Source of the DNA: Nitrospira sp.
GTDB lineage: Bacteria; Nitrospirota; Nitrospiria; Nitrospirales; Nitrospiraceae
Reading direction: 5' to 3'
Assembly (NCBI GenBank): GCA_024760545.1
Contig: CP060501.1
Span: forward strand, 4,108,036-4,172,035
DNA length: 64,000 nucleotides
Below the pieces are notes generated by a model. That model saw only the letters and a program-made list of their open reading frames with translations, ran no database searches and had not been told where the DNA came from. Below are positions 20,789 through 56,820 of this stretch, in pieces. Position numbers and translations under genes: made by a program. Each line of letters begins with the position of its first letter. Within the stretch, counting starts at the first letter, position 1.

Positions 20789-21125
20789 CGTTACTCTAGA
20801 ACATCGACGATCGGCCTGCTGACCACGGATGCCGAGGAACCCCTGCGAGACGTCGTGCCACAGACCTCTAGGCTGTTGTCAGTGAGATGGCAGGCGCATT
20901 TCACACTTGAATAATTCTATCGGACAGTGGCTTACTATCGGCTCACTGCCGCAGGCCACGTAAGTCGTCCTTGTTTCCACGGCCTGTAGTCGTAAGTTCG
21001 GGTACATGCTCCGAAGCGATGGGTACGCAGAGGAGCAGAAGACGAGAACGGATGCCTCTCTTCATCGGCCGAAACTATCCAATGCCCCATGGAAGCGTTC
21101 AAATCTGTCTTGCGATGAGGGCTCG
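20789..21125. other. Intergenic region, 337 bp, possible sigma-54 promoter
   Basis: No gene seen. TGGCTTACTATCGGCT at about 20925-20940 on + has the GG-N10-GC spacing of a -24/-12 promoter, but the -12 half is weak and I see no paired UAS palindrome nearby. It could drive the regulator at 21126. No strong terminator after metH was found. Confidence 0.35.
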
Positions 21126-22532
21126 ATGACGGCCAAATTCTTGATCGTAGACGATGACCACGACATCATCGAATCGCTCAAAAACCGTCTCAAATGGATC
21201 GGTCACGAGGTGGTCACGGCAACGGACGGCCATGCCGCGCTCGAGGTCATCGAGAAAGAATCCCCTGATCTCATGCTCCTCGACTTGGAAATGCCCCATG
21301 TGTCGGGGCTCGATGTTCTCGCCCGACTGGCTGCCTGGCGCAGCCAGAAGGAAAAGAGCAAACCCTTCCTTGATCAGCCCGTCGCTATCGTCATGACGGC
21401 GTTTGCGACCGTGAACAGCGCAGTCGAAGCCATGAGGCTCGGCGCGTTCGATTTTTTGACGAAGCCGTTCAAGATGGACCATCTCACCGTCGTCATCGAC
21501 AAAGCGCTTGCCAACCTGTCACTCACACGTCGGGTCGAAACCTTGACCGTCGAACTCGATAAAGCATACGAAGTCGTCATGGGGAAGAGCGCTGCCATGA
21601 AGAGTGTGGTCGACATCGCCCGCCAAGCCGTTTGTTCTCCCGTCACGGTGTTATTGTTGGGAGAAACCGGTACGGGGAAGGAAGTCATCGCCCGCGCCAT
21701 TCATCGGTGGAGCAACCGAGCATCGAAACCGTTCATGGTGGTCAATTGCGCGGCGATGCCCGAAAACCTGCTGGAGAATGAGTTGTTCGGGCATGAAAAG
21801 GGTGCGTTTACGGGAGCCACGACGAGAGAGATTGGGAAGATCGAAGCGGCAGACGACGGGACCATATTCCTCGATGAGATAGGGGACATGCCGCTCGCTC
21901 TTCAATCGAGACTGTTGCGTGTGTTGCAGGACCGGGAGTTCCACCGCATCGGCGGGCACCAGCATGTACGGACCAACGTACGGTTTATCGCGGCGACAAA
22001 CAGAGACCTCCAAGCAGCCGTCAGGAACCAGGCCTTTCGCGCGGATCTCTACTTTCGATTGGACGTGATGACGCTGACGATGCCGCCACTCAGGGAGCGG
22101 GTGGAGGATATTCCGGAGCTGGCCCATCATTTTCTCGGTCAGCACGCGGCCACAGTGCGCAAACGAGGGATGAAGATCAGCCCGGAGGCGATGGCCTGTC
22201 TCTCACGCTATAGCTGGCCGGGCAACGTGCGGGAGTTGGAAAATGTCTTGGCTCGCGCCGTCATTCTCTGCGCGGACGATGCGATCAGGCCGGCCCATCT
22301 CCGTCTGTCGTCGCTGCAGCCTTACGAGGCAAATCACTTGAGTGAGGACGCGTCCGATTCTCTGTATTACGATGCGATGGATCGGTGTAGCCGGAAACTG
22401 ATCGAAGAAGCGTTGAGCCGTGCCGGGTGGAACCAGACGAAAGCCGCAAAGGCGCTGGGCATCCAGCGAACCTATCTCACCAAACTGTTGCGCCAAAAGG
22501 GCATCTCAGGTCATCCTCCCCAGAACCGCTAA
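21126..22532 (+). CDS. Sigma-54-dependent response regulator (module 1)
   Basis: A 468-aa NtrC-type activator. ATG 21126 has GAGGG upstream; the frame is open from 21006 but without a ribosome site. Domains: receiver (about 3-125; VDDDHD acidic pocket, LLDLEMP phosphoacceptor Asp, K in TKPF), AAA+ ATPase (about 145-385; GETGTGKE Walker A, GAFTGA sigma-54 loop, FLDEIGD Walker B), and Fis-type HTH (about 425-465; NQTKAAKALGIQRTYLTKLL). The HTH is nearly identical to that of the regulator at 36762, so both should recognise the same operator. Its 3' end overlaps the convergent kinase gene by 4 bases. Confidence 0.95.
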   Translation: MTAKFLIVDDDHDIIESLKNRLKWIGHEVVTATDGHAALEVIEKESPDLMLLDLEMPHVSGLDVLARLAAWRSQKEKSKPFLDQPVAIVMTAFATVNSAVEAMRLGAFDFLTKPFKMDHLTVVIDKALANLSLTRRVETLTVELDKAYEVVMGKSAAMKSVVDIARQAVCSPVTVLLLGETGTGKEVIARAIHRWSNRASKPFMVVNCAAMPENLLENELFGHEKGAFTGATTREIGKIEAADDGTIFLDEIGDMPLALQSRLLRVLQDREFHRIGGHQHVRTNVRFIAATNRDLQAAVRNQAFRADLYFRLDVMTLTMPPLRERVEDIPELAHHFLGQHAATVRKRGMKISPEAMACLSRYSWPGNVRELENVLARAVILCADDAIRPAHLRLSSLQPYEANHLSEDASDSLYYDAMDRCSRKLIEEALSRAGWNQTKAAKALGIQRTYLTKLLRQKGISGHPPQNR

Positions 22533-27603: not shown

Positions 27604-27641
27604 TGGATCGAATCGATTCAACCTGAATCCTATTGGATTCA
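27604..27641. promoter_or_regulatory. Tandem UAS palindromes (site b)
   Basis: 27624-27641 is a perfect TGAATC-N6-GATTCA. 27604-27620 is TGGATC-N5-GATTCA. Centres are about 20.5 bp apart. It lies between the TonB receptor (minus) and the decayed + reading frame at 27891. Confidence 0.75.
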
Positions 27642-30243: not shown

Positions 30244-30677
30244 GAGTCGGATCTTGTTCGTTTCGTCGGGACCGAGGATTGTGTTGTGTACTCTCTATCG
30301 GCTCATTGGCGTCAGACCTGAATATGCGAGACCGGCGTACCCTTGGTGCACTTTTTATGCCAATGGATTTTGCCTCGATGGGGTCATTTCGTTATTGTCT
30401 CATGGTGATTGACTCGAGCGCTGAAGGATAGAATCGCTGCATCAGGAGAGGTTTTGGGATAGACCCCGTCGGATGATCCGATCCAGTCTCGATTCCGATG
30501 TCGGAGTATGCGTCAAAAGTTTGTACAGAATTCGTCAAACTCGGCCGGCAGCTTTTGTACATATGAGAAGAGAGCGGCACATCGACTCATCCGCGCTGCT
30601 CAACCGAGTGGTTGGTTTGCGCTTTCCCGGAGCCTTCACTATAATTCCGCTTTCACCGGTGAGGAAGGAACTTAGAA
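30244..30677. other. Divergent intergenic region, 434 bp
   Basis: Separates the HD-GYP regulator (minus) from rph (plus). It contains no supported gene and no paired TGAATC palindrome. A short open frame on + from 30473 runs toward rph but has no ribosome site and no protein-like composition. Confidence 0.5.
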
Positions 30678-34215: not shown

Positions 34216-34231
34216 AGCATTTCTTAGGCCA
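34216..34231 (-). promoter_or_regulatory. Sigma-54 (-24/-12) promoter
   Basis: On the minus strand: TGGCCTAAGAAATGCT, matching TGGCACGrNNNTTGCW at the invariant GG and GC with correct spacing and TGCT end. It points toward the 26-aa peptide and the 59-aa gene. The -24 GG is 82 bp from the nearer centre of UAS site f. The untranslated leader would be about 235 bases. Confidence 0.65.
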
Positions 34232-34303
34232 CGCGTGATCACGCACAAATTATTGTATTTATGTCACTTTCCACTTTGATGCGAAGTTCAGACATCTCGC
34301 CTT

Positions 34304-34342
34304 CGAATCGGAACGGATTCCAACTGGATCGGATGTGATCCG
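34304..34342. promoter_or_regulatory. Tandem UAS palindromes (site f)
   Basis: 34304-34321 is CGAATC-N6-GATTCC, and 34325-34342 is TGGATC-N6-GATCCG. Each keeps the inner ATC/GAT core; centres are exactly 21 bp apart. More degenerate than other sites, but its spacing and position relative to the promoter at 34231 are right. Confidence 0.55.
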
Positions 34343-34489: not shown

Positions 34490-36472
34490 TTATGGCACTG
34501 GATTTTGTTGCGCGGCGGTCAGCTGATTCTTAAATTCGTCCGGCAACTTCTGCACCCAACCATTATAGACATTAGGCACAGGCAACACGCCCTGTCCGCC
34601 CATGCCCTTGTTGCCAGTGATCGGGTCGTCGGTCGGGGCTGCGTCGTTAGCCAGCACCACCCACCCGGCAATCACCGGCGAGTCTGGCCCCGTTTGGGTC
34701 ACAATGCCGTCATTATCCGCATCGTAGTCTAAGACGATCAAACGATTGGAGAACTTGCTGGTGACATAGGCATAGTATCCACCGCCTTTCTTGGCGCCAA
34801 AGTTCACGCCGTGGCAGCCGGGATCGCACGCGATGCTTGCAACCAGGGTGTCGTTCTGGACATCGATGATCGTGATCGTCCCGGTCAAGGTGTTCCCCGT
34901 GATCACGAATTTCCCGTCCGGACTCACCGGCGTTTGGATCGGCAACCCACCGATGGCTCCATTCCCACCAACGGTGCCCGTAATCGGGTCGTAGTTTTGG
35001 AGCAAACTGATGTCCTTGATCTTGTTCCCTGTCGCCATATCGATCACGGAGATACTGTGGCCGAGGTAGTTGGACACATAGTACTTCGTCGAGGTCGGGT
35101 TGATTCCGGCGGCGATCGGCAGAGTGCCGGTAGCAGGTTTAGATTTGATCTTGTCAGTAATGAAATCCCAGAACGTGGAATCATTTGTATTGGAGTTGGG
35201 GGTCACCATCGTCTGGCCGTCATGGCCCATCCAATGGGCGTGCGGCTGTGCTTGCTTCTCCCCAGGTCGTTGCACCAGAATCCGGCGGTTGATAGTCAAG
35301 CTCCCATTTGCAGCCTTGTTCAGCTCAACCACGGCATCTTCCCCGTTAAGTCCCACGTGCACCTGCTCGTTATTGACCCTGGTCATCACGTGAGCGGGAT
35401 CATGGCCGAGCACGAGTTCCTGTAATAACACTCCGTCTGCGCGTCTCAGGACGTATAAGCTGGTGCCGTGCCACTCAGTATTATAAATTTGCGTCTGATC
35501 GTGACTGGCCCACAGATTGTGCGCGTTATTCATTTTTTGAGCAGGCAGCGCGATCTTACGCTTGACGGTCCATTTGTCCGCTCCTTCCACGTCGACCACG
35601 GTCACGGTGCTGGGATAGGCGTCCCCCTTACCAGCGCTATGCTCGTACTGCGTATCGACCCACACTTCGCCCACTCCATCGATTGCGGGTGTCTTCAATG
35701 CGGGAATTGTATCGCCGTCAAACGCTCCTTGGAGCGCCAGGTTTAGGTCTGGAACGACTGCGGAAGCACCATCTTTGTCAGTGACGCGGACAGGTACCGC
35801 AGGGTAGGTTGGCTGATACTTCTCTCCCTCCTTGGTGTAGTCCTTCCAATTGGTCGGACTGGTGACGAGGAAGAATGCACGTAACAGTCTGAGGCCCAGG
35901 TTTGAATTGCTGGGGAAGGCGTTTGCTGCAGTTGCAGGTTTACGAGCATCATCCGTGTGGGTGACGCCTAAGAGATGGAGCTTCTCGCCGATGTCGAGCC
36001 CCTCGGTCTTCGCATCATCGACAATCACACCAGCCAACATGTAAGGATGCAGCTTGCACACGAACACATGGAGACCCGGGCTCCTCAGGACTACGTCATG
36101 GTCGTCCTTGTTCGCTTTGTCCTGATCAAGACGCTCAGCGGGGGTCGCATCGACGGGCCAAATCAGGCTCGTGACGGTGTGAAAGGCCTCAACGCGCGAC
36201 TGGCCATTCGGGCCAAATTGTGACTTCGTTTGGAGAAACCGTACCCTGTCACCTGGCTTTACGATGGCCAAGGAACGAGTTCCGGCAACCGGAGTTCCAG
36301 TATCGAACCAGTAGCCCGGTTCGTCCGTCACGTCAAAGGTCACCGCTGCTGCAGGCCCCTTCCCTTGACTATTAGTGGAACTAGCAACAGGCGAAGCAGC
36401 GTCCTCGCCCGAACAACCGGCGACTCCCGCCGCAAGGCAGAGAGCAGCCACAAAGGTACCAGACCGGTTCAT
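34490..36472 (-). CDS. Lipoprotein with cupredoxin domain and YVTN beta-propeller
   Basis: A 660-aa protein. Lipoprotein signal with lipid Cys at residue 20 (GVAGC). Residues 45-155 form a cupredoxin: GDRVRF, His98 in AFHTV, and C139-x2-H142-x2-M145 (VCKLHPYM), which is the amicyanin-type type-1 copper set. From about 250 on, repeated strands such as YVSNYLGHSISVIDMATG, FVITGNTLTGTITIIDVQN and YVTSKFSNRLIVLDYD form a YVTN/Ncs-type beta-propeller. HDPAHVM, HAHWMGHD and CDPGCHGVNFG hold extra His/Cys. Likely an exported electron-transfer or copper protein. A sigma-54 promoter with paired UAS lies upstream. Confidence 0.85.
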   Translation of the reverse strand: MNRSGTFVAALCLAAGVAGCSGEDAASPVASSTNSQGKGPAAAVTFDVTDEPGYWFDTGTPVAGTRSLAIVKPGDRVRFLQTKSQFGPNGQSRVEAFHTVTSLIWPVDATPAERLDQDKANKDDHDVVLRSPGLHVFVCKLHPYMLAGVIVDDAKTEGLDIGEKLHLLGVTHTDDARKPATAANAFPSNSNLGLRLLRAFFLVTSPTNWKDYTKEGEKYQPTYPAVPVRVTDKDGASAVVPDLNLALQGAFDGDTIPALKTPAIDGVGEVWVDTQYEHSAGKGDAYPSTVTVVDVEGADKWTVKRKIALPAQKMNNAHNLWASHDQTQIYNTEWHGTSLYVLRRADGVLLQELVLGHDPAHVMTRVNNEQVHVGLNGEDAVVELNKAANGSLTINRRILVQRPGEKQAQPHAHWMGHDGQTMVTPNSNTNDSTFWDFITDKIKSKPATGTLPIAAGINPTSTKYYVSNYLGHSISVIDMATGNKIKDISLLQNYDPITGTVGGNGAIGGLPIQTPVSPDGKFVITGNTLTGTITIIDVQNDTLVASIACDPGCHGVNFGAKKGGGYYAYVTSKFSNRLIVLDYDADNDGIVTQTGPDSPVIAGWVVLANDAAPTDDPITGNKGMGGQGVLPVPNVYNGWVQKLPDEFKNQLTAAQQNPVP

Positions 36473-36540
36473 CGAACCCTCCTTTTGTCAGAGTAAAATC
36501 ATTAATGGCGGTTATCTGAATAAGTCGTCGGCCAGGGCTA

Positions 36541-36556
36541 AGCATTTCTCGAGCCA
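36541..36556 (-). promoter_or_regulatory. Sigma-54 (-24/-12) promoter of the cupredoxin-propeller gene
   Basis: Minus strand TGGCTCGAGAAATGCT. GG and GC are 10 bases apart, with TGGC-C-G and TGCT matching the consensus. It begins 84 bases before the ATG, giving an expected leader of about 60 bases. The nearer UAS centre (site c) is 84 bp upstream. Confidence 0.75.
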
Positions 36557-36629
36557 CAGAGGGTTCAAATCTAAGTGATTGTATTACAAAGCCGTTGACT
36601 CTCTTCGCATACATCTGATGGCTCGCTTC

Positions 36630-36669
36630 TGAATCAAAATGGATTCAGGGGGTGAATCAATTAGATACA
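36630..36669. promoter_or_regulatory. Tandem UAS palindromes (site c)
   Basis: 36630-36647 is a perfect TGAATC-N6-GATTCA, and 36653-36669 is TGAATC-N5-GATACA. Centres are about 22.5 bp apart. It lies in the 289-bp gap between the regulator gene and the cupredoxin-propeller gene. Confidence 0.75.
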
Positions 36670-36761: not shown

Positions 36762-38213
36762 TTAGATAAAGGAGGGAGAGGTTGGCGGCCTTCCTGAGAT
36801 CCGTTTTTGGCGCAGCAGTTTGGTCAAGTAGGTGCGCTGAAGGCCGAGTTCGGCTGCCGCTTTCGTTTGGTTCCACCCGTTCCGAATCAACGCATTTTCG
36901 ATAAGCTTTCGGCTATGGGCATCCATACTTTCATGATAAGAATGAAAAACGGTTTGACCATCTGCAGAAATGTCTGGTTCCTGCCTGGGGCGAGTGGGAG
37001 CATCAGGCAATAATAGATCTTCCGGTTCAATCGTGTCTCCGGTACATAAGACGAGAGCGCGGGAGATCACATTCTCTAACTCACGGATATTGCCGGGCCA
37101 GGAATAATGTTGCAATGCCTCCAACGCCACATCGCTGAGCACGAAACGTTTCTGAAGTCCCAGCTTGACGGGTCGAGAACTGATGAAGTGCTGCGCAAGA
37201 GCGAGAAGATCGTCCATTCGCTCCCGCAGGGGAGGCGGTGTGACCGTGATGACGGCAAGGCGAAAATATAAGTCTTCACGGAAAGTTCCTTGACGGATTG
37301 CCTGTCTCAGGTCTTTATTCGTAGCGGCAAGAACCCTCACGTCGACTTTGACCGACTTGGTACCCCCGACCCTGGTGAACACCTGATCTTGCAACGCGCG
37401 CAGGACTTTGGCCTGCGTGCTCATACTCATGTCACCGATCTCGTCGAGAAACAATGTTCCACCGTCCGCTTCTTCGAATTGGCCTCGCTTCATTGACGCG
37501 GCGCCTGTGAAGGCGCCTTTTTCATGCCCGAAGAGTTCGCTCTCGATCAATGTTTCAGGAATGGCTGCGCAATTGACGGCCACGAATGGTTTGTGGGCGC
37601 GAGGACTCCAACGATGAATGGCGCGGGCTAGAATTTCCTTGCCGGTTCCGGTTTCCCCAAGCAATAAAACGGTTGCGGTCGAAGCGGCCGCTTTTTTCGC
37701 ACAAGCGAGTTGTACAGCCATATGCTTGTTTGTGGCGACGATGGGGTCAAGCTGGTCATCAACCTCCTTTCGAAGCCGATTGAATTGGTGATGGAGGGCG
37801 ACGGTCTCCAATGCCTTCTTGATCACGACGGTCAAGTGATCCGCGGTAAACGGCTTCGGAACAAAATCGAAGGCACCGAGTTGCATGGCCTGCACGGCAA
37901 GCTCGATGGTTCCGAACGCCGTAAGGATGACAATGAGCGGGGTCGTGTACGTACCCGAAGTAGGCGGGGTGGCCTCTCCTTTAGGCTGATTCGCATGTGA
38001 CATATCACGAACTTGTCGTAAGACCTCCAGCCCGGATTCCTGGCCAAGCTTCAAATCCAACAAGACGAGATCGGGCACCTCTTCGCGGATCAGGCGAAGC
38101 GCACTCGCGACATCGGTGGCGATGAGGGGCTCATGTCCCATCCAGGTGACGCGATTCTCCAAGCTCATGCGGATATCATTCTCGTCATCCACAATCAGTA
38201 TCTTGGCGTGCAT
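36762..38213 (-). CDS. Sigma-54-dependent response regulator (module 2)
   Basis: A 483-aa NtrC-type activator. Start ATG 38213 (AAAGGA upstream). Receiver about 3-130 (VDDENDIRM, LVLLDLKLG, PKPF), AAA+ domain about 155-400 (GETGTGKE, GAFTGA, FLDEIGD, R-finger region), Fis-type HTH at the end (NQTKAAAELGLQRTYLTKLLRQK). The HTH differs from that of the module 1 regulator by only a few residues. It is the third gene of the operon binding protein / kinase / regulator, which itself has a UAS pair and sigma-54 promoter, implying positive autoregulation. Confidence 0.95.
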   Translation of the reverse strand: MHAKILIVDDENDIRMSLENRVTWMGHEPLIATDVASALRLIREEVPDLVLLDLKLGQESGLEVLRQVRDMSHANQPKGEATPPTSGTYTTPLIVILTAFGTIELAVQAMQLGAFDFVPKPFTADHLTVVIKKALETVALHHQFNRLRKEVDDQLDPIVATNKHMAVQLACAKKAAASTATVLLLGETGTGKEILARAIHRWSPRAHKPFVAVNCAAIPETLIESELFGHEKGAFTGAASMKRGQFEEADGGTLFLDEIGDMSMSTQAKVLRALQDQVFTRVGGTKSVKVDVRVLAATNKDLRQAIRQGTFREDLYFRLAVITVTPPPLRERMDDLLALAQHFISSRPVKLGLQKRFVLSDVALEALQHYSWPGNIRELENVISRALVLCTGDTIEPEDLLLPDAPTRPRQEPDISADGQTVFHSYHESMDAHSRKLIENALIRNGWNQTKAAAELGLQRTYLTKLLRQKRISGRPPTSPSFI

Positions 38214-38279
38214 AGAATTCCCGTCCTTTCGAGATAGGCTTCTCCATCCCAAGGAATATGGCGATGCGCGGCGGATGGT

Positions 38280-40586
38280 TTATGTTGTCTGACTTGGCTC
38301 ATGCGGCGATCCAGCAATGGGCAGCGTAAAGAAAAAACGTGATCCGGTCCCAGGTTGACTTTCCACCCAGATCCGCCCGTGATGTCTCTCGACAAGCGTT
38401 TTTGTGATGTACAGGCCCAGTTGGGCACCCTGTGATGCAGGCATGGCCGACGGCACCTCAGAAAACTCGTCGAAAATATACGGGAGGTGAGAGGAGTCTA
38501 TTCCACAGCCGGTATCGGTGACGCATGTCTGTACGAATCCTGATGGGCATACACTAAAATCGACCACGACACGACCGCCGGATGGTGTGAATTTGATGGC
38601 ATTTCCGACGAGATTCACCAGAATCTGCTCCAATTTGTCGAGGTCACCCTGGATCAATGGAAGATGTTCTCTCGGAGTCACAGCGAGGGACACGTGGCTA
38701 TCTGATGCGACCGTTTCCAAACCTTCGGTAACGATCGTTGCAATCTGCCCGATACAGACATGTTCCAAGCGAAGATTGTCGGAACGTAGCCAATCAAGCA
38801 ACTCATTGGCCAATCTCGCAAGCCGAGCGACGCTGTGTTTGATGCGTGTGAGATAGGTACGCTGTTGTTCGGTGAGCGGTCCAGTGACACCGTCGAGCAT
38901 GTTTTCCGCGAAACTACGGATCGCTGTCATAGGAGTCCGCAGCTCATGCGAAACGACTTTGACATACTTTGATCGGCGCGTGTCGTGGGCCTGAAGCTGT
39001 AAATTGGCGAGTGACAGCTCTTCCGTCCGTTGCGCGATGCGCTCCTCGAGATGCTGCGTGAGCTCGGTCAGTTCGGAATAGGCCTTGGCATTGTCGATCG
39101 CGGCCGCAACGTGGCCGGCGATCGTTACGAGTATATGGAGGTCCTCTTCGCTGCACTGGCGTGAGCAGCGGTCGCCGGCGAGAAATCCCAATATCTTGGT
39201 ATGGCTCTGGAGCGGTACGGCGACGAACGACTGCACGTCTGAACGGCGTGCCATCTCAAGTATCGGCGGGTACATCCGTTGTGTGACGGTTTCGACATCT
39301 TGGATCAGCAATGGTTTGCCATGAACGATGAGGTCGGCCGTGATACTGCCATTATCGACGACTGGTATGTCGATCCGGCGAATAGCCTCTGCGATCTCCG
39401 GCGAGACGCCGATGATTCTGGCAAGTGAAGCACAGTTCCGATCCGGATGGTGTAGGAACACAGTCATCCGAGAAAATCCAAGGTTATCGACGAGCAGGTG
39501 GAGCACCGAATCCAGCAGTTGGTTCATATCGAACATGTTGGCGCTCGCGATCGCAGTGCTGGCTTGATGGACCGTGGTCAATTGTCTGACCTGTTTCCTG
39601 ATCGTGTCGAGGTTCATGGTGATCGCATGATTACGATCATGGAGGGACTGTGTCATCACGTTGAACACCTGTGTCAACTCACCGACTTCGTCGTGGGTGG
39701 AGGCTGTGAGTCGAACCGGTGCATCGTTGCGTTCCGCGAGCTGCCGAGCCGCGCCGGCCAGGCTCCTCAGAGGTGTGGTGATGCGTGATGTCAGAAAGTG
39801 AGCACTGAGGATGCCTGCCATGATGATGAGAACTGTCATGGCCGATACATTGCGGAGGATCACCAATAAAGCCTCTTTGGCCAGTGCGTCGGTAATTCCG
39901 ATGCGCACGACGCCGATCACCGGAGAGAGTGTAGTCGGGGTCATTGAACCCTGCTTGTCTTCCAATTCGACCGAAAAGTGTGGCTGGGTGGGCTCGGACG
40001 AGGATGCCCGAAGGACGGGCATCGCAAAGTCAAACAAGGTTTCCTTGCGTACGAGATAGGGGAGGAGCCAGTCTGAATGCTGTTCTTGGGGGACTAATGT
40101 CTGCTCCGCAGACAGAACCAGTTTGGTCATGAGCGGAACGGTCAGCGGGGCCTGGAGCAGTGATGCTGAGATGCGGTCGTCCGGGTAGAGGGGCTGTTCC
40201 GTGGCCGGAGCGGACCCGTTCGACGTCCTCCGTGTGCGTTTGCTTTGCTGTTCCAGGATACGACCGTCTGCGGAAGTGATGGTTACGTAGACGACGTGGT
40301 CGATCGTCATAAGACTCTGTATAAATTGGCCAAGCGTGATGCGATCCTCGAGAACGACACCGGCGATCCGAAAGTGATCGTTCCGAACGGTATTGGTCAG
40401 CAAGATGTTTCCGAGTTCTTCCAGATTGTCCGTCATGGCCTGGCGTCGTGTTTCGAGGAAATACCAGCTCAGAGACGAACAGGTCATCACGAGAATAAAG
40501 CTGAACAAGCTTACGAACTTCAATCGGAGGCCAAAAAACCGAGCGGTGGACTTCGATTCCTGTCCGTCGTGAAGGTGTGTGCTCAT
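38280..40586 (-). CDS. Membrane histidine kinase with GAF domain (module 2)
   Basis: A 768-aa sensor kinase. ATG 40586 is chosen; TTG 40601, overlapping the binding-protein stop, is possible. TM1 about 20-42, periplasmic region about 45-215, TM2 about 225-248, HAMP (RITTPLRSLAGAARQLAERND), GAF (about 325-480; LGFSRMTVFLHHPDRN, VQSFVAVPLQS), HisKA (VVSHELRTPMTAIRSF), HATPase (ILVNLVGNAIKFTPSGG, DTGCGI, LGLYITKTLVERH). The extra GAF domain distinguishes it from the module 1 kinase and could add a cytoplasmic input. Confidence 0.95.
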   Translation of the reverse strand: MSTHLHDGQESKSTARFFGLRLKFVSLFSFILVMTCSSLSWYFLETRRQAMTDNLEELGNILLTNTVRNDHFRIAGVVLEDRITLGQFIQSLMTIDHVVYVTITSADGRILEQQSKRTRRTSNGSAPATEQPLYPDDRISASLLQAPLTVPLMTKLVLSAEQTLVPQEQHSDWLLPYLVRKETLFDFAMPVLRASSSEPTQPHFSVELEDKQGSMTPTTLSPVIGVVRIGITDALAKEALLVILRNVSAMTVLIIMAGILSAHFLTSRITTPLRSLAGAARQLAERNDAPVRLTASTHDEVGELTQVFNVMTQSLHDRNHAITMNLDTIRKQVRQLTTVHQASTAIASANMFDMNQLLDSVLHLLVDNLGFSRMTVFLHHPDRNCASLARIIGVSPEIAEAIRRIDIPVVDNGSITADLIVHGKPLLIQDVETVTQRMYPPILEMARRSDVQSFVAVPLQSHTKILGFLAGDRCSRQCSEEDLHILVTIAGHVAAAIDNAKAYSELTELTQHLEERIAQRTEELSLANLQLQAHDTRRSKYVKVVSHELRTPMTAIRSFAENMLDGVTGPLTEQQRTYLTRIKHSVARLARLANELLDWLRSDNLRLEHVCIGQIATIVTEGLETVASDSHVSLAVTPREHLPLIQGDLDKLEQILVNLVGNAIKFTPSGGRVVVDFSVCPSGFVQTCVTDTGCGIDSSHLPYIFDEFSEVPSAMPASQGAQLGLYITKTLVERHHGRIWVESQPGTGSRFFFTLPIAGSPHEPSQTT

Positions 40587-40597
40587 GATCAGACCGG

Positions 40598-41563
40598 TCA
40601 ATATGTCTCGTCGATAAGGCTGTCGAACTCTTTCGGAATCGTGATGTCCAAATACCGCGCCATCTTCTGATTGACCGTAATCTTGATCCGGTGAACTGAA
40701 ATTGGCTTGAGCGGCAACTGTTCACCGTTCAAAATCCGTTTGGCAAGCAGGCCGGCTTCACGTCCGACTTCCCCGTAATCGATCGAGATACTGAGTAACG
40801 CGCCGAGACGTGTAAATTCAGAAGAGAACCCGACGACCGGAACCCGTTTGGCTACCGCCGATTCCAGAATGAAGCGAATCGATTCATCCGTCAGGACGGT
40901 TGAGTCCGGAATGAACCATAAGGCTTCGGATTCGGATAAAAGTGATCGCAGTTGCTGCGGGACTTCTTTCTCGTTCTCGACCGGAAACCCCTGTACTTGG
41001 AACTGGTGGTCGGCAGCTTGAGATTCTGCCTCCTTCAGCTTGGCCACAGTCTTGTCGGCACTGTAGATCACGCCGATGCGGCGAAGGGCGGGAAGGAACA
41101 TGCGCATGACTTTGAACTGACGATCCATCGGAACTTCCAGCAGCACGCCGGCCATATTGGCGGCAGTGAGATGGTGTTTCAATGGATCGAGGATCATCAT
41201 GTAAAGAATGGGAACGTCCACAATCTCAAGCTGAGCCGCCAGCGCTGCCTTCAGACCGACGGCAACCACGAGCGAAGATGTCGAATTGCGGATTGTCCTG
41301 GCAAGTTGCTTTCCCCGTTCCAGATCGCCTCGAAGATCATATTCAGCGTAGATGGAAGTCCCTGGCGCCGTCACCTTGAACCCTTCGATTGCCTCGTTGT
41401 AGGCCTTGAGGTCGGATGACTTCAGGATAGCAATCTCGCCCCCGGCAGCGTGAGCGCTCGCAGGGGCAACGGACCAGAGAGCGGTGAACACGAGGGACAG
41501 TAGCCATGTGTGTGAGAAGCACACTCTCATCTGTTTACGGCCGGTAAAAGGAAGAGCGAGCAT
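40598..41563 (-). CDS. Orphan ABC-type substrate-binding protein (module 2)
   Basis: A 321-aa periplasmic protein of the ABC_sub_bind (PF04392) group. Start ATG 41563 (an internal ATG at 41530 is also possible; ribosome sites are weak). Signal peptide to about 40 (ASAHAAG). GEIAILKSSDLKAYNEAIEGF, VAVGLKAALAAQLE, GVLLEVPMDRQ and IGVIYSADK match the module 1 paralogue. No permease or ATPase gene is present. First gene of the operon and directly behind a near-consensus sigma-54 promoter. Confidence 0.9.
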   Translation of the reverse strand: MLALPFTGRKQMRVCFSHTWLLSLVFTALWSVAPASAHAAGGEIAILKSSDLKAYNEAIEGFKVTAPGTSIYAEYDLRGDLERGKQLARTIRNSTSSLVVAVGLKAALAAQLEIVDVPILYMMILDPLKHHLTAANMAGVLLEVPMDRQFKVMRMFLPALRRIGVIYSADKTVAKLKEAESQAADHQFQVQGFPVENEKEVPQQLRSLLSESEALWFIPDSTVLTDESIRFILESAVAKRVPVVGFSSEFTRLGALLSISIDYGEVGREAGLLAKRILNGEQLPLKPISVHRIKITVNQKMARYLDITIPKEFDSLIDETY

Positions 41564-41712: not shown

Positions 41713-41728
41713 AGCAAGCGCTGTGCCA
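41713..41728 (-). promoter_or_regulatory. Sigma-54 (-24/-12) promoter of the module 2 operon
   Basis: Minus strand TGGCACAGCGCTTGCT, the best match in the window to TGGCACGrNNNTTGCW. The leader to the ATG at 41563 would be about 135 bases. The nearer UAS centre is 97 bp upstream. Confidence 0.85.
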
Positions 41729-41815: not shown

Positions 41816-41854
41816 TGAATCCAAATAGATACGAACTGAATCCAATTAGATTCT
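41816..41854. promoter_or_regulatory. Tandem UAS palindromes (site d)
   Basis: 41816-41833 is TGAATC-N6-GATACG, and 41837-41854 is TGAATC-N6-GATTCT. Centres are exactly 21 bp apart. Located between the module 2 promoter and the end of the DUF928 gene. Confidence 0.75.
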
Positions 41855-41899: not shown

Positions 41900-42658
41900 C
41901 TATTGAGCATTGATCTGAATGGATCTGAGATCCCAGTCTGCCACGCCATGCAGGCCGACTTGCCTGAGCAAGGTGGCTCGCATCCTTCGCAGCGATGCAT
42001 CTCTGGGATCCTTCGTGATCAATGAGCAGAGACAATCCATTGCGTCGTACCAGAGCCCCATCATGGCGTTGGTACGCACACTCTCACGATCGCAGTTCAT
42101 ATTCGGGGAGGCGATCGTCAGACATTCGCTGAACTCGCATCGCTCGATCATTCCGCCCGCGACGATATCTTGGGAGTGGGAGTCGGCATTGCGACGGGCG
42201 GAGACGAACCATCGATACTGGACATTGGGCTCAAGCACGAGTCCGAAAGCCTTGAGGTCGATAGACTGAACCCCTGCGTCAGTGGGAGTGGGGAGCGGGC
42301 CTTCATAGACCGGACGAATTTTCTGCGTGTCGTTGAGCGTGAATCGTAGAGGGTAGGTCGTCGGTTTCGAGAGATACCAACTGAGCGTGGGCGTCTGCTT
42401 GACGGTCAACCCGACATGGTCGGGCACCAATGCGACGATTTCGGGGTCATTGCCCTCCGTTCCCCGCAATGCTCCCCCGACACGCGCGCGGGGAGTCAAC
42501 TTTTTTGGCGGAGTATAGACAGGATTTGACAAGTCATCCTGCTGACCTGCCGCTGGGCTGGTCGGTTTGTCTGCCGCAGCAACGAACCTATGTGGTCCAA
42601 CAATGGTCAGGACGAGGCTCAATCCTGCGATTAGTAAAGCACTCGTGGAAAATCGCAT
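41900..42658 (-). CDS. DUF928-family exported protein
   Basis: A 252-aa protein. ATG 42658 follows AAAGGAGG five bases upstream, so the longer frame is rejected. Signal peptide about 1-30. The DUF928 pattern is clear: RARVGGALRG, ALVPDHVGLTVKQTPTLSWYLS, PLRFTLND, YRWFVS, and a helical C-terminus with TPR-like repeats. In cyanobacteria and others DUF928 genes sit with two-partner secretion genes and CHAT proteases, exactly as here. Last gene of the TPS/CHAT cluster, 11 bases after the CHAT stop. Confidence 0.85.
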   Translation of the reverse strand: MRFSTSALLIAGLSLVLTIVGPHRFVAAADKPTSPAAGQQDDLSNPVYTPPKKLTPRARVGGALRGTEGNDPEIVALVPDHVGLTVKQTPTLSWYLSKPTTYPLRFTLNDTQKIRPVYEGPLPTPTDAGVQSIDLKAFGLVLEPNVQYRWFVSARRNADSHSQDIVAGGMIERCEFSECLTIASPNMNCDRESVRTNAMMGLWYDAMDCLCSLITKDPRDASLRRMRATLLRQVGLHGVADWDLRSIQINAQ

Positions 42659-42669
42659 GGATCCTCCTT

Positions 42670-45015
42670 TCATAGCCAATTGTTCAGCAGGAGAAATGGT
42701 GACCAGTAAGCCGGATGTTCATACACGCGGTCACCCAAGAGTTTCATCTGTGCGCGCTGGAGCGCGACGGCTTTCGACAGGGATGGATTGCGCAATTGCC
42801 GATAAAATTCGGAAATCAACGTCGCCGACGCTTCGTCGTTGATAAACCATAACGTCGCCAATGCGCTACGGGCCCCGGCCTTCAGTGCGACGCCGGCCAG
42901 GCCCAGAGCGGCGCGATCGTCACCGACCCCTGTCTGGCAAGCGCTCAAGGTCAAAAGTTCCAGCGGCTCTTGCCGGAACCGAAAGAGGCCGACCAGTTGA
43001 TCAAGCGTCTGCATCGTCAATTTCCCGTCGAACGTCAGAAGAAACGAATCGTTTACGTCGGTTGAAAACATACCGTGCGTTGCTATATGCAACGCCCCAT
43101 AGCGTCCATCGCGCAACTCCTGTTCCAGCCTTGGCGCCTGGAAGGCATTATTCATAAGTTGGTCGCTCGTGTACAGCTGCTCGATCGAGGCGACCTCCTC
43201 CGCGACGTAGGGAAGAGGAGGGAAACCCTGGACGGATTTCGTGAGGCCGACGGCTAGGAAGCGCAGCTTATCGCGGTTCAACGGTCTTGGATCGGTCAAC
43301 GTAATGCCCGGAGTCAAGGCCAGGGCGAATTTTGTGATCAGGAAGGAAGAGCCGTCATGGAGGGACGCCAGCGGAATTGTGCGTAGTGAACTGTCCGGCA
43401 CGAATACCAGTGTGGTAATCACTGAATTCAAAAGGTCCGGTTCGATCGGACGCACCAGCCAGTCGTACAACTGTTGTGCATGGGGTAGATACTCCCGGGT
43501 GGTCCGCTTTTCCACCACTCGGCGAAAAGCCCGGATCTCCTGGGTCAACCGGTCGGAGGTCACGGGCACCGAGATGCGCTTGAGTCCGGAGGGCAGGCTG
43601 ACAAGCAGCTCCAGACGGGAGGTGAACATGATAGGGTAAATAACGGCAGTATCCGGAGACAAGTAATCGAACGTCGTCACTCTCGAGCGGACCGCATCGA
43701 CACAGTCGTCCCGAAAATAGTCCCGAAGCTCGGCCGTCTTGTACGCCTCAATCGCATCTCGAGCTGCAAGCAGATACCCTTCGGCTGCTGTGCGCTCATC
43801 AGTGAGCGATGCCCGCTGGAGTAAGAGGTCGGCCAGCTCAAAGAACATCGGCTTTATGGCATCCTGGCCGGCGATAGGATCTTCGGAGGATGTTTGCGCC
43901 ACCTCCACCCGAATCGGTTGGAGCGTGGATACCGCTTGTCGATAGGAAGCGATGGCGTTATCCAATTCTCCGATAGCGGCCAACTGCCGCCCCAACTGCC
44001 ATTGCCAGCGGTAGAGGGACTCGGGTGCGTCCACCGATTGCGCCGCGAACAATGCCCGCCTGGTGAGTCGGAGCGCTTCATCCAGGCGAGACTCTGTCTC
44101 GTAGAGATGGCCGAGATACCCAAGAGCATACGACAAGGTTCTCTTGTCACCCAGCTGTTCAGTGACTGTGGCCGCTTCCTGGAGCATGCCCGCAACTCTC
44201 AATAACAGGGAATCGTGCATCTGGGGCAGCTGTGAGGCAAGGCGTTGGTAGACCAGAGCCATACCGATCAATCCGAGAGCTCTGTTGCGGGATGGTGACA
44301 CGTCCTTCAACTGATCCAGCGCTGCATCGAGAGCCATACGGCTATTGACCGGTTGATTGAGGCGTAGCAGGACACGCGCGGCATTGGTGCGGCCGGTGGC
44401 AGCGAGTAGTTGCAAGTTGGCCTTTTGTGCGAAGCTCACGCATTCATCGAACGCATTCAGCGCTTGCTGGTCTTGCTGCTTCAACACGAACAGGATGCCG
44501 AGATCGTTCAGCGAAGCGGCCATGAGCGGCGAAGAGTCGTGTTTTCGTGCTAACGCCGACGCTTGATGGAGATATTCCGATGCTTCGTCCAGTCGCCGCA
44601 ACGTCAAATAGGTGCGCCCCAGATGGCCGAGGACGGAGGCCTCAACCAGGGGATCGCCGCCCATGTGTGCAAGCGTAAGGGCCAGTTCCAAAGACTGGAG
44701 CGCTTGTGCGGATTGCCCCAAGGCCATCGATGCCTGAGCAGACAGAATGAGCGCTTCGACTTGAGCCGGACCGTTCCCCATACCTTTATAGAGATCCGCA
44801 GCCTGTTTCCAATGGGACAAGGCCTCACCGAACGCGCCGCGCTCAAAATGCTGGCCGCCTTCCCTCATCAATGAATCACCGGGAGATAATGTTTGATGCG
44901 ATTCTGATTGCGTGACGGCGAACAGCAGCACCATCACGAAGAATAGAAAGCAGATTCCGCGCAGAACGAAACGGAGGGCAGGTCGAGTACATAGTGATGT
45001 CGCGTGGTTCATCAT
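42670..45015 (-). CDS. Exported TPR-CHAT protease
   Basis: A 781-aa protein. The N-terminus is a membrane signal (about residues 15-40, RGICFLFFVMVLLFAV), so the protein should be periplasmic or anchored. About 50-400: tetratricopeptide repeats (ALSHWKQAADLYKGMGN, EASVLGHLGRTYLTLRRLDEA). C-terminus: CHAT domain (caspase-like, clan CD) with HIATHGMF (catalytic His near 647) and LLTLSACQTGVGDDRAALGLA (catalytic Cys near 693), plus ATLWFINDEA. The ATG overlaps the tpsB-like stop (TAATG). Catalytic residues are intact. Confidence 0.92.
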   Translation of the reverse strand: MMNHATSLCTRPALRFVLRGICFLFFVMVLLFAVTQSESHQTLSPGDSLMREGGQHFERGAFGEALSHWKQAADLYKGMGNGPAQVEALILSAQASMALGQSAQALQSLELALTLAHMGGDPLVEASVLGHLGRTYLTLRRLDEASEYLHQASALARKHDSSPLMAASLNDLGILFVLKQQDQQALNAFDECVSFAQKANLQLLAATGRTNAARVLLRLNQPVNSRMALDAALDQLKDVSPSRNRALGLIGMALVYQRLASQLPQMHDSLLLRVAGMLQEAATVTEQLGDKRTLSYALGYLGHLYETESRLDEALRLTRRALFAAQSVDAPESLYRWQWQLGRQLAAIGELDNAIASYRQAVSTLQPIRVEVAQTSSEDPIAGQDAIKPMFFELADLLLQRASLTDERTAAEGYLLAARDAIEAYKTAELRDYFRDDCVDAVRSRVTTFDYLSPDTAVIYPIMFTSRLELLVSLPSGLKRISVPVTSDRLTQEIRAFRRVVEKRTTREYLPHAQQLYDWLVRPIEPDLLNSVITTLVFVPDSSLRTIPLASLHDGSSFLITKFALALTPGITLTDPRPLNRDKLRFLAVGLTKSVQGFPPLPYVAEEVASIEQLYTSDQLMNNAFQAPRLEQELRDGRYGALHIATHGMFSTDVNDSFLLTFDGKLTMQTLDQLVGLFRFRQEPLELLTLSACQTGVGDDRAALGLAGVALKAGARSALATLWFINDEASATLISEFYRQLRNPSLSKAVALQRAQMKLLGDRVYEHPAYWSPFLLLNNWL

Positions 45016-46823
45016 TACAATGCCTGGACCACTACCTGGAGATGAATGCCATAGTCTTGGAGGTTGCCGGATGGATGGGGCACATGATTGAGCGGTACGC
45101 CCCAGTAGAGTTCGAATCGAGCCCTGTCTCGGGGCAGGACGTTCCAGCGGACGCCGAGACCGACGCTGGCGAGCGTCTCGGGAGACGGTGTGCTGTCACG
45201 CGAGATCCAGGCTCGTCCGACGTCAACGAACTGGGCAAACTGAACCATATCTTCGCCGCTGGCAAACTTGAGGAGGGGAATCCGGCTTTCCACGGAGGCG
45301 ATGAATCCGTTGTCCCGGACCAGCGTGTTTTCCCGATAGCCGCGCACGCTGAAGCGCCCTCCCATCGGGATCTGTTCGAGCGGAAACAACCGGTTGTTGC
45401 TGAGCTGGAGATCAAACCGTCCTAGGATCTGCCAGCCGCCCCATTGGTCGAGACGTTTCACCGCCTGGAGTTGTCCCAACCAGGACACAAACCGGCCGCT
45501 GGGCAGCGGATCGCCCTCGGGGGTGAGCCTATCGCGCGAATTGATTGTGGCTCCTAGGACATCGAAGCCCAGGCTGACGCGGGAGCGGAACGCAATCACC
45601 GAGGATGAAGTTCGGTGCTGATACTCCTGAATGAACCGAAGGGCGCTCACGGTGCTCACCCCGGTGTCGGATGCCCCGGGAACAAAAATAAACGGTTGCC
45701 CAGGTAAGTCGAAGGCCGAGGTAATCTTGTTGGAGAGATGCTCGCCGGTGATTGCCACGGCGAGTTCGTCGGTCAAGCTTCGATAGATCGGTTGCCGGAG
45801 CGTTAACCCGAAGATTTCCGACTCCGAGTTCAAGTCCAACGCGCGAAACTGGTCGCTGACGACCACAAACTCGTTTCGGCGATACGACGTGGTGAAGGTG
45901 GTATCGTACCGGTTCAGTGGCAAGCTGTAAGAGACGTCGATGATCGGGTGCACCCCACGTGAGCCGCCGACGGTGAGGGTGAGAGGATCTCCGTGGCCTG
46001 TCACATTGAGGTGGGCCATGGTGATCAGACCTCGCTCTGCACCCACCGTCGGCGTCTGGAAGTTATTGAACTCCAGCCACGTTTTCCACGGACTGGTCTC
46101 TTTGACTTTCACGTTGAGAACACTTTCCCCACGCTGGTCGCCTGGGCGCAGTTCGGCATTGATTCGTTCGATGCGGGGATCACGCTGGAGCAATTGCAAT
46201 CGCTCTTGGATCGGTTCGAGTTTGAGTGGAGGACGCGCGCCCAGGGCCACACGGTCGTTCAAGTAGCCGCGCCGAAACCAGTTCGTTCCTTCGACGTCGA
46301 TTCGTGACAGGGCTCCCTCTATGATCTGCACCTGAATGACACCGCCCTTCACATCCTGATCGGGAATGATGGCACCGGAGGTGATGTAGCCATTGTTGAC
46401 GTACAGGAGCGTCAACGCGAGCCGCAGACGTTCCAAATCTTCGGTCGTCAAGGTTCGGTTCGTATAGGCCTTGGTGATGGCTTCGACTTCTGCGTCCGAG
46501 AAGACGGAATTGCCGGTGACCTGGATGGCATTCACAAACACGCGCACCTGGCCGAGTGGTTTCTGCACCTCGCTGTCCGGCAGCGGTGGAGGCACCACCG
46601 GGAGGGTGGGGCTTGGTGTCGGTGAAGGCGGTTTGAACTCTTTCTTGAGCGGAGCAGGCGGTTCGCCGGATCGAAGCGTGGGGTCAAAGATCGGAGGAGC
46701 GACTTGTGCTGAGAGCGGGGAAACAGTCGCGAGGATAGTCATGGCCAGACCACAGGAGAGAAAGGCTTGGGCGATGATCCGGCGCCGGGCTCCTGGAGCC
46801 GAAGCACCGGTGCCAACCGTCAT
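45015..46823 (-). CDS. TpsB outer-membrane pore (ShlB/FhaC/HecB family)
   Basis: A 602-aa two-partner-secretion transporter. Signal peptide about 1-42, a Pro-rich linker (PPAPLKKEFKPPSPTPSPT), two POTRA domains (about 95-260; FVNAIQVTGNSVFSDAEVEAI, VKGGVIQVQIIEGALSRIDVEG), then a 16-strand barrel including the family motif region GRFSVRGYREN (VRGY). It exports the adjacent TpsA protein. The start overlaps the tpsA-like stop by ATGA. Confidence 0.93.
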   Translation of the reverse strand: MTVGTGASAPGARRRIIAQAFLSCGLAMTILATVSPLSAQVAPPIFDPTLRSGEPPAPLKKEFKPPSPTPSPTLPVVPPPLPDSEVQKPLGQVRVFVNAIQVTGNSVFSDAEVEAITKAYTNRTLTTEDLERLRLALTLLYVNNGYITSGAIIPDQDVKGGVIQVQIIEGALSRIDVEGTNWFRRGYLNDRVALGARPPLKLEPIQERLQLLQRDPRIERINAELRPGDQRGESVLNVKVKETSPWKTWLEFNNFQTPTVGAERGLITMAHLNVTGHGDPLTLTVGGSRGVHPIIDVSYSLPLNRYDTTFTTSYRRNEFVVVSDQFRALDLNSESEIFGLTLRQPIYRSLTDELAVAITGEHLSNKITSAFDLPGQPFIFVPGASDTGVSTVSALRFIQEYQHRTSSSVIAFRSRVSLGFDVLGATINSRDRLTPEGDPLPSGRFVSWLGQLQAVKRLDQWGGWQILGRFDLQLSNNRLFPLEQIPMGGRFSVRGYRENTLVRDNGFIASVESRIPLLKFASGEDMVQFAQFVDVGRAWISRDSTPSPETLASVGLGVRWNVLPRDRARFELYWGVPLNHVPHPSGNLQDYGIHLQVVVQAL

Positions 46824-49800
46824 GAGTGGCAGCCTGTGGATCCACTCGCAAACGCTCGAACCAAAAACCCTGGCGGCGTCAGCCGTCGAAGGGACACGAT
46901 CTCGGTCTCAGTCACACGTGCGATCGCACTCGGACTTGTCGTATGCTCCAGTTCCTCTCCAGTGAAATGATCCATCGACACGGGGCTACTGAGCCACCCG
47001 CCTGGCTGGGAGGGGAGGGCATCACGTCCGGCGACAATGAACGTGCTCTGTTCGCCGCCGGCAAGTGCCGCACAACGGTTTTGCAAGAGCGCCTGGATTT
47101 CGCTCGGCTTCGACGGGAGCTGCGTGACCGTCTCACTCAAGTTCGAGGTCGACGATTGAATCGATACCTTGCCGCTCTGGCCAAACTGTGACGATGCGTC
47201 CACGAGGCTGGTGGGATCCTGTAGGAACCGGGCTGTACTAATCGTGATATCTCCCCCGCGTCCTAGCACCGCCTGTGTGAGGATCGCACTGTTGTCTTGT
47301 ACGATAACTTCTTTCGGGTCGATGGTGATTCTTCCACTGTCTCCAGAACCCTCGAGCACCGACGTGCTGATTCGGCCATTCGCTAAGTGAATACGATCGA
47401 TCGCGATAATATCGATATTGCCACCTCTCGCTGATTCTGCTTCAGTCGTAATTCCGCCGTTTCGTACCATGAGTTCCCGTCCGGCATCTACTTTGATATT
47501 TCCTGCGCTTCCTGGACCGGTACTGCGGCTGGATATGTGTGCACCGTTCTGAAGCGTGACGGAGTTGGCATTGACGAAAATGCTCCCGCCCAGCCCGGGT
47601 CCTTTTGTTTCAGAAAAGATACCGCTTCCCGAGCCGTCAATGACTACCGACGCCGCCGGACTGCCTAAGGCCTGGATCGTAATAGACCCACCCACACCCG
47701 AACTGCCAGAGAGTATAGAGCTGTTGAGCTTGCTTCCCTCCGAAAGGGAAACGTTCTGTGCATTAATGTTAATCGGACCGGAATTTCCAGCGCCTTGCCC
47801 TATTGTGTTCATTACGGATTGGCCAGAGAGCAAGATCATAGGCGAAGAAATCTCAAGGCTGCCTACATCCGATAGGAAGCTAAAAACTCGAATGTCGCTT
47901 CTGTCATTCATTAAGATTGATTCTGTTGCGTGGATATTAATTTTAGGAATCGTGGAGGGCAGCGGCTCAGAGAATGTAGAGCTGTATATTCTGGCTTGAT
48001 TCGACAGAGTAAGCGTTTTAGTTTCAAGATTGATTACACCAGTTCCGCCAGTCCCTTCGGGGTTCTCGTTTGTAATAGGAAAAGGTGGTTGGCCTAAGAT
48101 ATCTCCTTCCAAGGAAATTGCATCTGATGTGACCACAGAGATGTTCCCTGACCTCCCATTCCCACCGGTTGTACGGATACTTCCATTCGAGATGTTGAGA
48201 TTTCTAATTGCGAGCGAGATATTGCCAGACGGCTCAGTGCTGCTACCTGGTAATGTCTCAATTCTTCCACCATTCTCAATGTTCACGGTAGCTGAAGGAG
48301 CGGTGATATTGATTGATGCACTGGTTCCACCATTCGCTCCCATGGTGGCTGTCTGAATGATGCTTGGGTTGTCAAAGATCCCCATGCCCGCAATAGAGAT
48401 GAAGTCGGCTCCATGAATAGTGATTGGGCCTGCCTGGCCAGGACCGTCACCAAATCCGCGTAACAAGTAATTCCATCCACCGGTTGAGGCAATACGACCT
48501 CCTGATAAGATATTGAGTTTGGTAACATCTATTGTGATAGGCTGACCAGAACCCGCCCCTGTAGTAAAAGTTGCAACCTCACCCGAATTCTCAATGGTCA
48601 GCCTCGGGGTTGAGATGGTCAAAGCTCCGTCCCCACCACCCCCCAGAGTTCCTGCGAAAATTCCACTCGGTATAATTCCGATATCTGACCAAACGCCAGA
48701 GGTGGAAGTGTCACCATATCCAGAAATACTGATGGCTTCTGTAGCGACGACATTCAAGTTCCCACCACCTACAGATGATGAACTTTCATTGCTCGTGACT
48801 ATCTGAGAAGCTCCGCTTAGATCAAGAGATCCAGTCACAATACTTATCGCTGTACCATCTGCTCCACTGGTTGTAGTACCGAGAACACGACTCCCTTCTG
48901 TCAAGGTGATAGAGTCCCTATTATCGCTGGTTGTGGAGGGAGTCCCAGTTGAGAGAGTCGCTTTCGTGACATTGAGTACAAATTCACCGCTGCGAATAGA
49001 TATAACACTTGTGGCACTATCACGGTTGTCTATCCATGATTGTGGGGAGAGCGAAATGACGCCATAAGTATGGAACACTTGTCCGTCTCGATTGGGAGCG
49101 GCTTGCAAATTCTCATAAATGAACTCTCCAGGCGAGTGAGCACTTCCTAGACGAATGTACCCATTTGGCGCAAGTAGTTTAGCTGTTTGAGACGTGCCGC
49201 TCTCGAATGCTCCCTTCTGGATCTCGACATTTCCACCGGCCAATGTAAGCTGAGATCCAGTTGAGACAGCCAGATGGGCACCTTGCACGATGATTCCGCC
49301 AGAGTTTGAGGTGAGAAACCCAAAGGCTACCACTGGAGCTGCGCTGAGCAGAGCATCTGACCCTACGTCTGGCACTGCGTTAAATAGAGAGCCATCGGTC
49401 GAGCGAAGATAATTGGCTGTGGTGAAATTGACTGAACCCCCGACATTTAATGTTGCCCCGGGGCCAAAGACAATGCCAGCAGGGTTCATAAAAAAGAGGT
49501 TTGCGTTTGGATAATAAGAGGCACTATCGATAGAGCCGAATAAATGGGAAGGGTAGCCACCGGTAACCCGCGCAAGAAGATTACTGACGGAGTTATCTGG
49601 TACTAAAGTTGTGGTTTGGAATTGGCCAGTCTCCAGAGGACCAACGGAAAATTTCCCAAAACTATGAAACAGATTGCTCCCCACCTGGATGCCGTGCGTA
49701 ATACTATATACGGTTCCGCCATGAGGTGGAGGAGTTACGGTGGTGTGAAGACCTGACGGCGTAATGTCGGTTGATACCTCCGCTTGGATTTCGGTACTGG

Positions 49801-49843: not shown

Positions 49844-49859
49844 AGATTCTCCCTAGATC

Positions 49860-50693: not shown

Positions 50694-50762
50694 GTTCTTC
50701 TCCCCTCGTAAGAAAATGATCATGTACCGCGTGTCTCGCCTGGGTCTTAATACTTTGAAAAA

Positions 50763-52799: not shown

Positions 52800-52815
52800 A
52801 GCAAAGGGCGAGCCA
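52800..52815 (-). promoter_or_regulatory. Sigma-54 (-24/-12) promoter of the 69-aa gene
   Basis: Minus strand TGGCTCGCCCTTTGCT: TGGC-C-G and TTGCT at the correct spacing. The leader would be about 85 bases. UAS site e centre is 131 bp upstream. Confidence 0.75.
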
Positions 52816-52936
52816 TGCATGCGACTTCAAATTCTCGCGTGCACAAAAATTCGCGCGAGGGCTTGACTGTCACGCTGCTGCCGCATTTGTCGATGACAAG
52901 ATTCCTATTTTGTATTTTATGGAAAGGGAATAGTAG

Positions 52937-52975
52937 TGAACCCAAACAGATTCAACCTGAATCCAATTTGATTCA
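52937..52975. promoter_or_regulatory. Tandem UAS palindromes (site e)
   Basis: 52958-52975 is a perfect TGAATC-N6-GATTCA, and 52937-52954 is TGAACC-N6-GATTCA. Centres are exactly 21 bp apart. Confidence 0.8.
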
Positions 52976-56751: not shown

Positions 56752-56820
56752 CGGCTGATCCCCGCGAATGCTGTGAATGCTGAGTATCGCGGGTTTCCTC
56801 CAGAGGAAAGTCCCATGAGG

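Follow-up and report, generated by a model that had tools for sequence, protein, structure and literature searches.

On its sequence and on models of its structure, the gene at 34490-36472 (minus strand) encodes a real, conserved and inducible copper-propeller lipoprotein of Nitrospira, 660 amino acids in length. The reading that we prefer, with a probability of about 0.5, is that this protein is a lipid-anchored extracytoplasmic copper oxidoreductase with two predicted redox parts, the production of which is induced through sigma-54. The gene lies in a window of 64,000 nucleotides (the whole stretch of DNA that was analysed, G000:C1:4108036-4172035) from a 4.81-Mb Nitrospira genome. AMO (amoA) genes are present twice in that genome, and a Nitrospira sp. 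MAG (locus L003) encodes a protein 100% identical to the window lipoprotein; the window genome is therefore that of a comammox-type Nitrospira. In Nitrospira, which include complete ammonia oxidisers, much of the energy metabolism is extracytoplasmic and many of its proteins are without assignment. A literature search, thin for subscription journals, found no published description of the protein, its domain plan or its regulon.

The open reading frame, which is also supported by Pfam and by homologues, was re-derived from the sequence together with the residue numbers and promoter coordinates given in an earlier note on this DNA, and all were as that note had them. Residues 1-20 (36413-36472, minus strand) form a predicted signal peptide and lipobox, MNRSGTFVAALCLAAGVAGC-S, in which VAGC occupies positions 17-20 behind a short hydrophobic stretch; C20 is followed by serine at +2. 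The same lipobox is found in the lipoprotein-type orthologues, and the close orthologues share this N-terminus. The note had further described a lipoprotein in which a copper set of His98, Cys139, His142 and Met145 precedes a propeller, and both conservation and the predicted folds bear this out.

The cupredoxin domain comprises residues 42-160 (35993-36349, minus strand) and carries the ligands H98, C139, H142 and M145, that is, the His and Cys-x2-His-x2-Met of a type-1 cupredoxin. Conservation was assessed in a homologue alignment of 45 rows, from which hits shorter than 560 amino acids, rows with identical last 300 residues and L001/L003 (the window’s own copy) had been left out. C139, H142 and M145 are kept in 45/45 rows and H98 in 43/45, the remaining two being one gap and one masked X. 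The earlier note had called for a structure prediction of the copper site, and when residues 42-262 were folded alone with AF2 (pLDDT 81.7) the fold was indeed that of a type-1 cupredoxin. The 50 Foldseek matches listed for this model are all cupredoxins; the best one in the PDB is 2ux6 (E 5.5e-6), a pseudoazurin with an engineered amicyanin loop. VIA-align superimposed it on pseudoazurin 5z0x with Z 9.8 (rmsd 3.1, 109 aligned); beyond about residue 205 the model is hardly covered by cupredoxin fold matches. A Pfam scan of the window protein detected the propeller (PF10282) only and not Copper-bind, and among 20 family members profile hits were obtained for amicyanin in four and for pseudoazurin, plastocyanin and Copper-bind in one each, so that a sequence scan of a single protein overlooks the copper domain. 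The domain is thus like amicyanin and pseudoazurin in its ligands, its fold and its best PDB match, but unlike them in being fused to a propeller, anchored to the membrane and too divergent for Pfam Copper-bind. Taken as a prediction from alignment, model and fold matches, the copper domain of the lipoprotein is well supported, and the predicted site is very likely to be loaded with copper.

The second domain, from about residue 265 to 640 (34553-35680, minus strand), is a propeller with seven blades in the full-length model (pLDDT 83.9, pTM 0.86). VIA-align gave Z 38.0 against 1l0q (rmsd 1.9, 296 aligned), Z 33-36 against lactonase-type propellers and Z 30-31 against nitrous oxide reductases, the last being level with many metal-free propellers. 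The sequence scores above the gathering cut-off of Pfam Lactonase PF10282 (29.8 bits against 21.7). The earlier name of “YVTN propeller” holds for the seven-bladed fold but is loose as a label, as the repeat model scores 17.4 bits against a cut-off of 27.85. The domain therefore resembles the lactonase-like, YncE and YVTN propellers (PF10282, 1l0q) in its fold and in its PF10282 score; it differs from them in its invariant set of His, Cys and Met and in the fused copper domain. Heme d1 proteins were also considered as relatives and set aside: the A1 profile matched NirF at E 0.13 only, and NirN (6rtd) was at rank 14 in Foldseek.

Six propeller histidines (H318, H361, H372, H411, H413 and H554) are invariant in 45/45 rows. 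They represent 6 of the 12 histidines of the propeller, compared with 77 of 395 propeller columns, a modest enrichment among related sequences (hypergeometric P 0.016). C549 and C553 of the sequence CDPGCH, a CX3CH motif, are likewise present in 45/45 rows, as are M363, M415 and M422, with M314 in 44/45. According to our reading of the strand list of the model, H318, H361, H411/H413 and H554 are on the innermost strands of blades 2, 3, 4 and 7, whereas H372 is on a second strand and blades 1, 5 and 6 are without an invariant histidine; the six may therefore not make one site. C549 and C553 could form a structural disulfide. Nevertheless, given the six histidines, the CX3CH and the invariant methionines, the propeller probably does more than serve as a scaffold. 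The most interesting claim of the analysis is that of a candidate second site, active or metal-binding, in this domain, and we put its chance just short of even.

Expression of the gene appears to be governed by sigma-54. A -24/-12 element, TGGCTCGAGAAATGCT, is found by pattern match at 36541-36556 (minus strand), 84 nucleotides before the start; it agrees with TGGCACG-N4-TTGCW at 10 of 12 positions, has the GG-N10-GC spacing and is conserved in orthologues. Upstream of it on the same strand are a perfect enhancer dyad, TGAATC-N6-GATTCA (36630-36647), and a degenerate one with an N5 spacer, TGTATC-N5-GATTCA (36653-36669). The promoter and the pair of upstream activating sites proposed in the earlier note are thus both real. 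In the window there are 6 matches to TGGCNYRNNNNNTGCW, of which this promoter is one, with 1.10 expected, and 0 of 100 shuffles reach 6; dyads are present upstream of four of the six strict matches. The perfect dyad occurs at eight places in the genome, four of them in the window, compared with 0 for a reversed-pattern control. A looser paired pattern combined with the -24/-12 box gave 10 hits, some unconvincing, against 1. The genome has a single RpoN (one PF04552 match).

The combination of box and dyad recurs upstream of 13 of 14 lipoprotein-type orthologues (window included). Of 5000 control windows, 18 contain it, and a few of these could be genuine sites. The same architecture is seen in 0/26 further family members: 0/4 same-clade relatives that are not lipoproteins, 0/13 paralogues linked to a multicopper oxidase (MCO) and 0/9 other members. 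The orthologue count left out L018, which is masked upstream; L024, a fragment; L009, L010 and L013, whose start is lost or truncated; L038 and L043, in which the start is unclear; the own copy of the window (L001/L003); and L027-L033, L035 and L036, which are the same loci as others already named. In most orthologues the box is located between -242 and -262, and the dyad lies another 79-111 bp upstream, compared with 73 bp in the window; in L015 and L016, whose start is uncertain, the box is at -18 and -91. The enhancer is missing from L008, in which the lipobox and a -24/-12 match are present. With box and enhancer conserved across species and one RpoN in the genome, sigma-54 control of the gene is highly probable and better supported than when it was first suggested. 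That the lipoprotein clade has kept such control as a shared trait is, on the upstream sequences, well supported, and it is the strongest result of the analysis. The arrangement is like other NtrC-type sigma-54 regulation in its GG-N10-GC RpoN box, its tandem dyad enhancers 21-23 bp apart and its adjoining NtrC-type regulator; the particular enhancer, TGAATC-N6-GATTCA, is different, and no printed account of it or of its Nitrospira regulon was found in the literature search made. Several orthologues (L005, L007, L011, L012, L034, L040 and others) also have, at about -130 to -180 and within the stretch from the sigma-54 box to the gene, a CTAAT-N-ATTAG-like palindrome and after it a TTGACa-N17-TAT..T-like promoter; this arrangement, judged by eye and uncounted, is not seen in the window copy.

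Adjoining the gene, all on the minus strand, are an NtrC-type response regulator, RR1, with receiver, AAA+ and Fis HTH domains (36762-38252, likely ATG near 38213), and, by domain scan, a sensor histidine kinase with HAMP, GAF, HisKA and HATPase domains (38280-40601) and an ABC-type substrate-binding protein (PF04392, 40598-41566), the last being the first gene of the sensor operon. This operon has its own -24/-12 element (41713-41728) and tandem enhancer dyads (41816-41833 and 41837-41854), which suggests autoregulation. RR1 is likely, at somewhat better than an even chance, to be the activator of the lipoprotein gene; the alternative is a second NtrC-type regulator encoded in the window, RR2 (21006-22532, plus strand), which is about 53% identical and has nearly the same recognition helix (QRTYLTKLLRQK). 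Of the 14 genomes with lipoprotein-type orthologues, 12 have RR1 at >=60% identity; it is missing from G046 (80% complete) and G057. In G057 the orthologue does have the promoter, but at the E-value used only the RR2 type is found. The trio of ABC-type protein, kinase and regulator adjoins the gene in the window locus, L003 and L018 (26 stretches compared).

Two further sites with both elements are present on the minus strand of the window, one at 52800-52975 (-24/-12 element 52800-52815, dyads 52937-52954 and 52958-52975) and one at 56736-56859 (-24/-12 element 56736-56751, dyads 56821-56838 and 56842-56859). On the plus strand there are a perfect dyad at 27624-27641 and tandem dyads at 6631-6670, the second of which is perfect. 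Behind the 52800-52975 site is a single run of genes (41900-52118, minus strand) for a Reprolysin-like metalloprotease, an unassigned protein, a two-partner-secretion exoprotein, a ShlB/FhaC-type transporter, a CHAT-TPR protein and a DUF928 protein. The sites in the window thus precede this run, the sensor operon and the lipoprotein gene, in keeping with the view, stated in PMC3162934, that sigma-54 governs the cell exterior. Elsewhere on the minus strand, the two matches to the sigma-54 box without GATTCA dyads (34216-34342 and 30347-30500) have a common upstream 10-mer (ATCCGATCCA/TGGATCGGAT), and 34304-34342 holds a tandem palindrome (CGAATCGGAACGGATTCC, TGGATCGGATGTGATCCG); these are perhaps sites of another regulator or a terminator.

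Among 98 relatives searched, 46 have matches at E <= 0.001, weak propeller-only ones counted. Of the 59 genomes of the genus, 33 have a match below 1e-90, and the 26 without one mark the gene as accessory. A function specific to comammox was rejected, such matches being present in 22/34 amoA-positive and 11/25 amoA-negative genomes (Fisher P 0.18). A quick tree of the 45 rows, with long branches and unsure deep splits, has a group of 23 that includes the window protein and a group of 22 made up of paralogues and others; a third set of members is from Nitrosomonas, an Acidobacteriaceae MAG and Nitrospira. The paralogues have a multicopper oxidase (PF07732, PF07731) encoded upstream in 13/13 clade-B loci tested, and one pair of this kind is located in the window genome itself at C1:259136-263269 (L081), with a perfect dyad (G000:C1:258381-258398, L081:6382-6399) about 0.8 kb past the 3' end of the paralogue. 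No multicopper oxidase adjoins the window gene. Some neighbours recur in the window clade, namely NnrS (identified by Pfam) and, as judged by eye, genes resembling RecQ, ArsM and GTPases, and they look like plain synteny.

A propeller joined to a cupredoxin recalls nitrous oxide reductase (NosZ), and the window protein could be a divergent member related to clade III L-NosZ (NF052460; He et al. 2025, as cited in PMC13122619), a lactonase-type NosZ-like group also being described in PMC11033732. Common to both are a cupredoxin and a lactonase-type seven-bladed propeller in which hub histidines are conserved. Of 20 family members, 17 match the NCBIfam L-NosZ model at E <= 0.01, under its cut-off (best E 2e-13). 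The L-NosZ set used for comparison was of six sequences from Nitrospirota, where 2 of 295 genomes exceed the cut-off; it left out L065 (represented by the wrong ORF of its locus), L066/L067 (more distant) and L063 (fragment). When the family propeller was aligned with clade-III L-NosZ by hhalign (probability 95.6, E 1.1e-8), H318, H411 and H554 were paired with L-NosZ His 134, 220 and 384, but a second, shifted alignment had a near-equal score (probability 94.9), so the register of these three is not unique and the correspondence is tentative. L-NosZ His 80, 135, 263 and 326 have no histidine counterpart, leaving 3 of 7 CuZ histidines aligned. In NosZ, as described in PMC11573801, the CuZ hub cluster is held by seven histidines, two from blade 2 and none from blade 4; the pattern of the window propeller is different, with an additional histidine on blade 3 and His-x-His on blade 4. 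The order of the domains is also reversed: the L-NosZ propeller is followed by a C-terminal CuA cupredoxin (C527, C531, H535), whereas the window protein begins with a mononuclear type-1 domain that has a single Cys and no C-x3-C. The window protein scores 18.1 bits where the curated cut-off of NF052460 is 700, it is a lipoprotein, and of the two nos accessory genes tested NosL has 0 matches in its genome and NosD none over the cut-off. On domain order, CuA, CuZ histidines, score and the absence of NosL, membership of this family was rejected, and we consider it very improbable.

The main rival to an oxidoreductase is that the protein is an inducible electron carrier only, with the propeller serving as a docking scaffold for a multicopper oxidase or dehydrogenase partner and its invariant His and Cys being structural. 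This is quite possible, though we would bet against it. The cupredoxin is clear from ligands and fold, a multicopper oxidase, which would be a natural electron partner, stands beside the paralogues in all clade-B loci, and the propeller is nearer to plain lactonase/YVTN propellers than to nitrous oxide reductases, which score no better than metal-free ones. However, six invariant histidines that are mostly innermost, a CX3CH and the methionines exceed the needs of a docking face, and the window gene lacks the adjoining oxidase. A copper-handling surface protein for storage, sensing or detoxification, induced by metal stress and not a redox enzyme, is improbable. The many invariant Met, His and Cys outside the cytoplasm would suit it, and multicopper oxidases, which can be copper-detoxification enzymes, adjoin the paralogues; in Nitrosomonas marina (L022) a copper-type P-ATPase-like ORF (by eye) is located 0.6 kb downstream. 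The intact type-1 ligand set is, however, suited to electron transfer, and the 20 window ORFs scanned included no neighbour recognisable as a copper-resistance gene.

The earlier note had read the protein as a copper electron carrier in an inducible redox step. The cupredoxin-propeller and its sigma-54 control stand; the adjoining regulator may be the activator, and the term “electron carrier” may be too modest, given the invariant His, CX3CH and Met of the propeller and the paralogues beside multicopper oxidases. That the protein is an enzyme and not a pure carrier falls a little below an even chance. According to the oxidoreductase reading, transcription would stay low until a signal is sensed by the two-component system, made up of the periplasmic binding protein, the histidine kinase and the NtrC-type regulator; once phosphorylated, the regulator would bind the TGAATC-N6-GATTCA dyads some 70-110 bp upstream and activate RpoN polymerase at the -24/-12 box. 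In the protein so produced, the N-terminal type-1 (amicyanin/pseudoazurin-like) domain would pass single electrons, and the His/Met/Cys set on the inner strands of blades 2, 3, 4 and 7 would probably bind either a substrate or a further metal, copper being the likeliest. With two candidate redox sites in one copper protein, and a dedicated sensor that would switch it on through a conserved enhancer, the signal could be found from one promoter and the chemistry from one purified protein. If the propeller holds a metal, nature would have two versions of the combination of propeller and cupredoxin known from nitrous oxide reductase. A broader proposal, which we regard as unlikely on present evidence, is that of a new class of copper oxidoreductase in nitrifiers, with a type-1 domain before a propeller bearing a candidate His/Met/Cys hub metal site (His on blades 2, 3, 4 and 7; CX3CH on blade 7), either independent of or divergent from the nitrous oxide reductase plan and occurring in at least three forms: the sigma-54-induced lipoprotein, a secreted form paired with a multicopper oxidase, and that of Nitrosomonas and Acidobacteria.

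Two orthologous loci have features of their own. In L013 (the same locus as L035, G028:C110) the orthologue is in two pieces, residues 4-208 and 207-660, about 1.5 kb apart with another ORF in the gap, which suggests an insertion. In L010 a vanadium-haloperoxidase-like protein (DUF6851, VCPO_2nd; L010:3429-4940) is encoded 3' of the cupredoxin-propeller gene, and a homologue of it is found upstream in L011.
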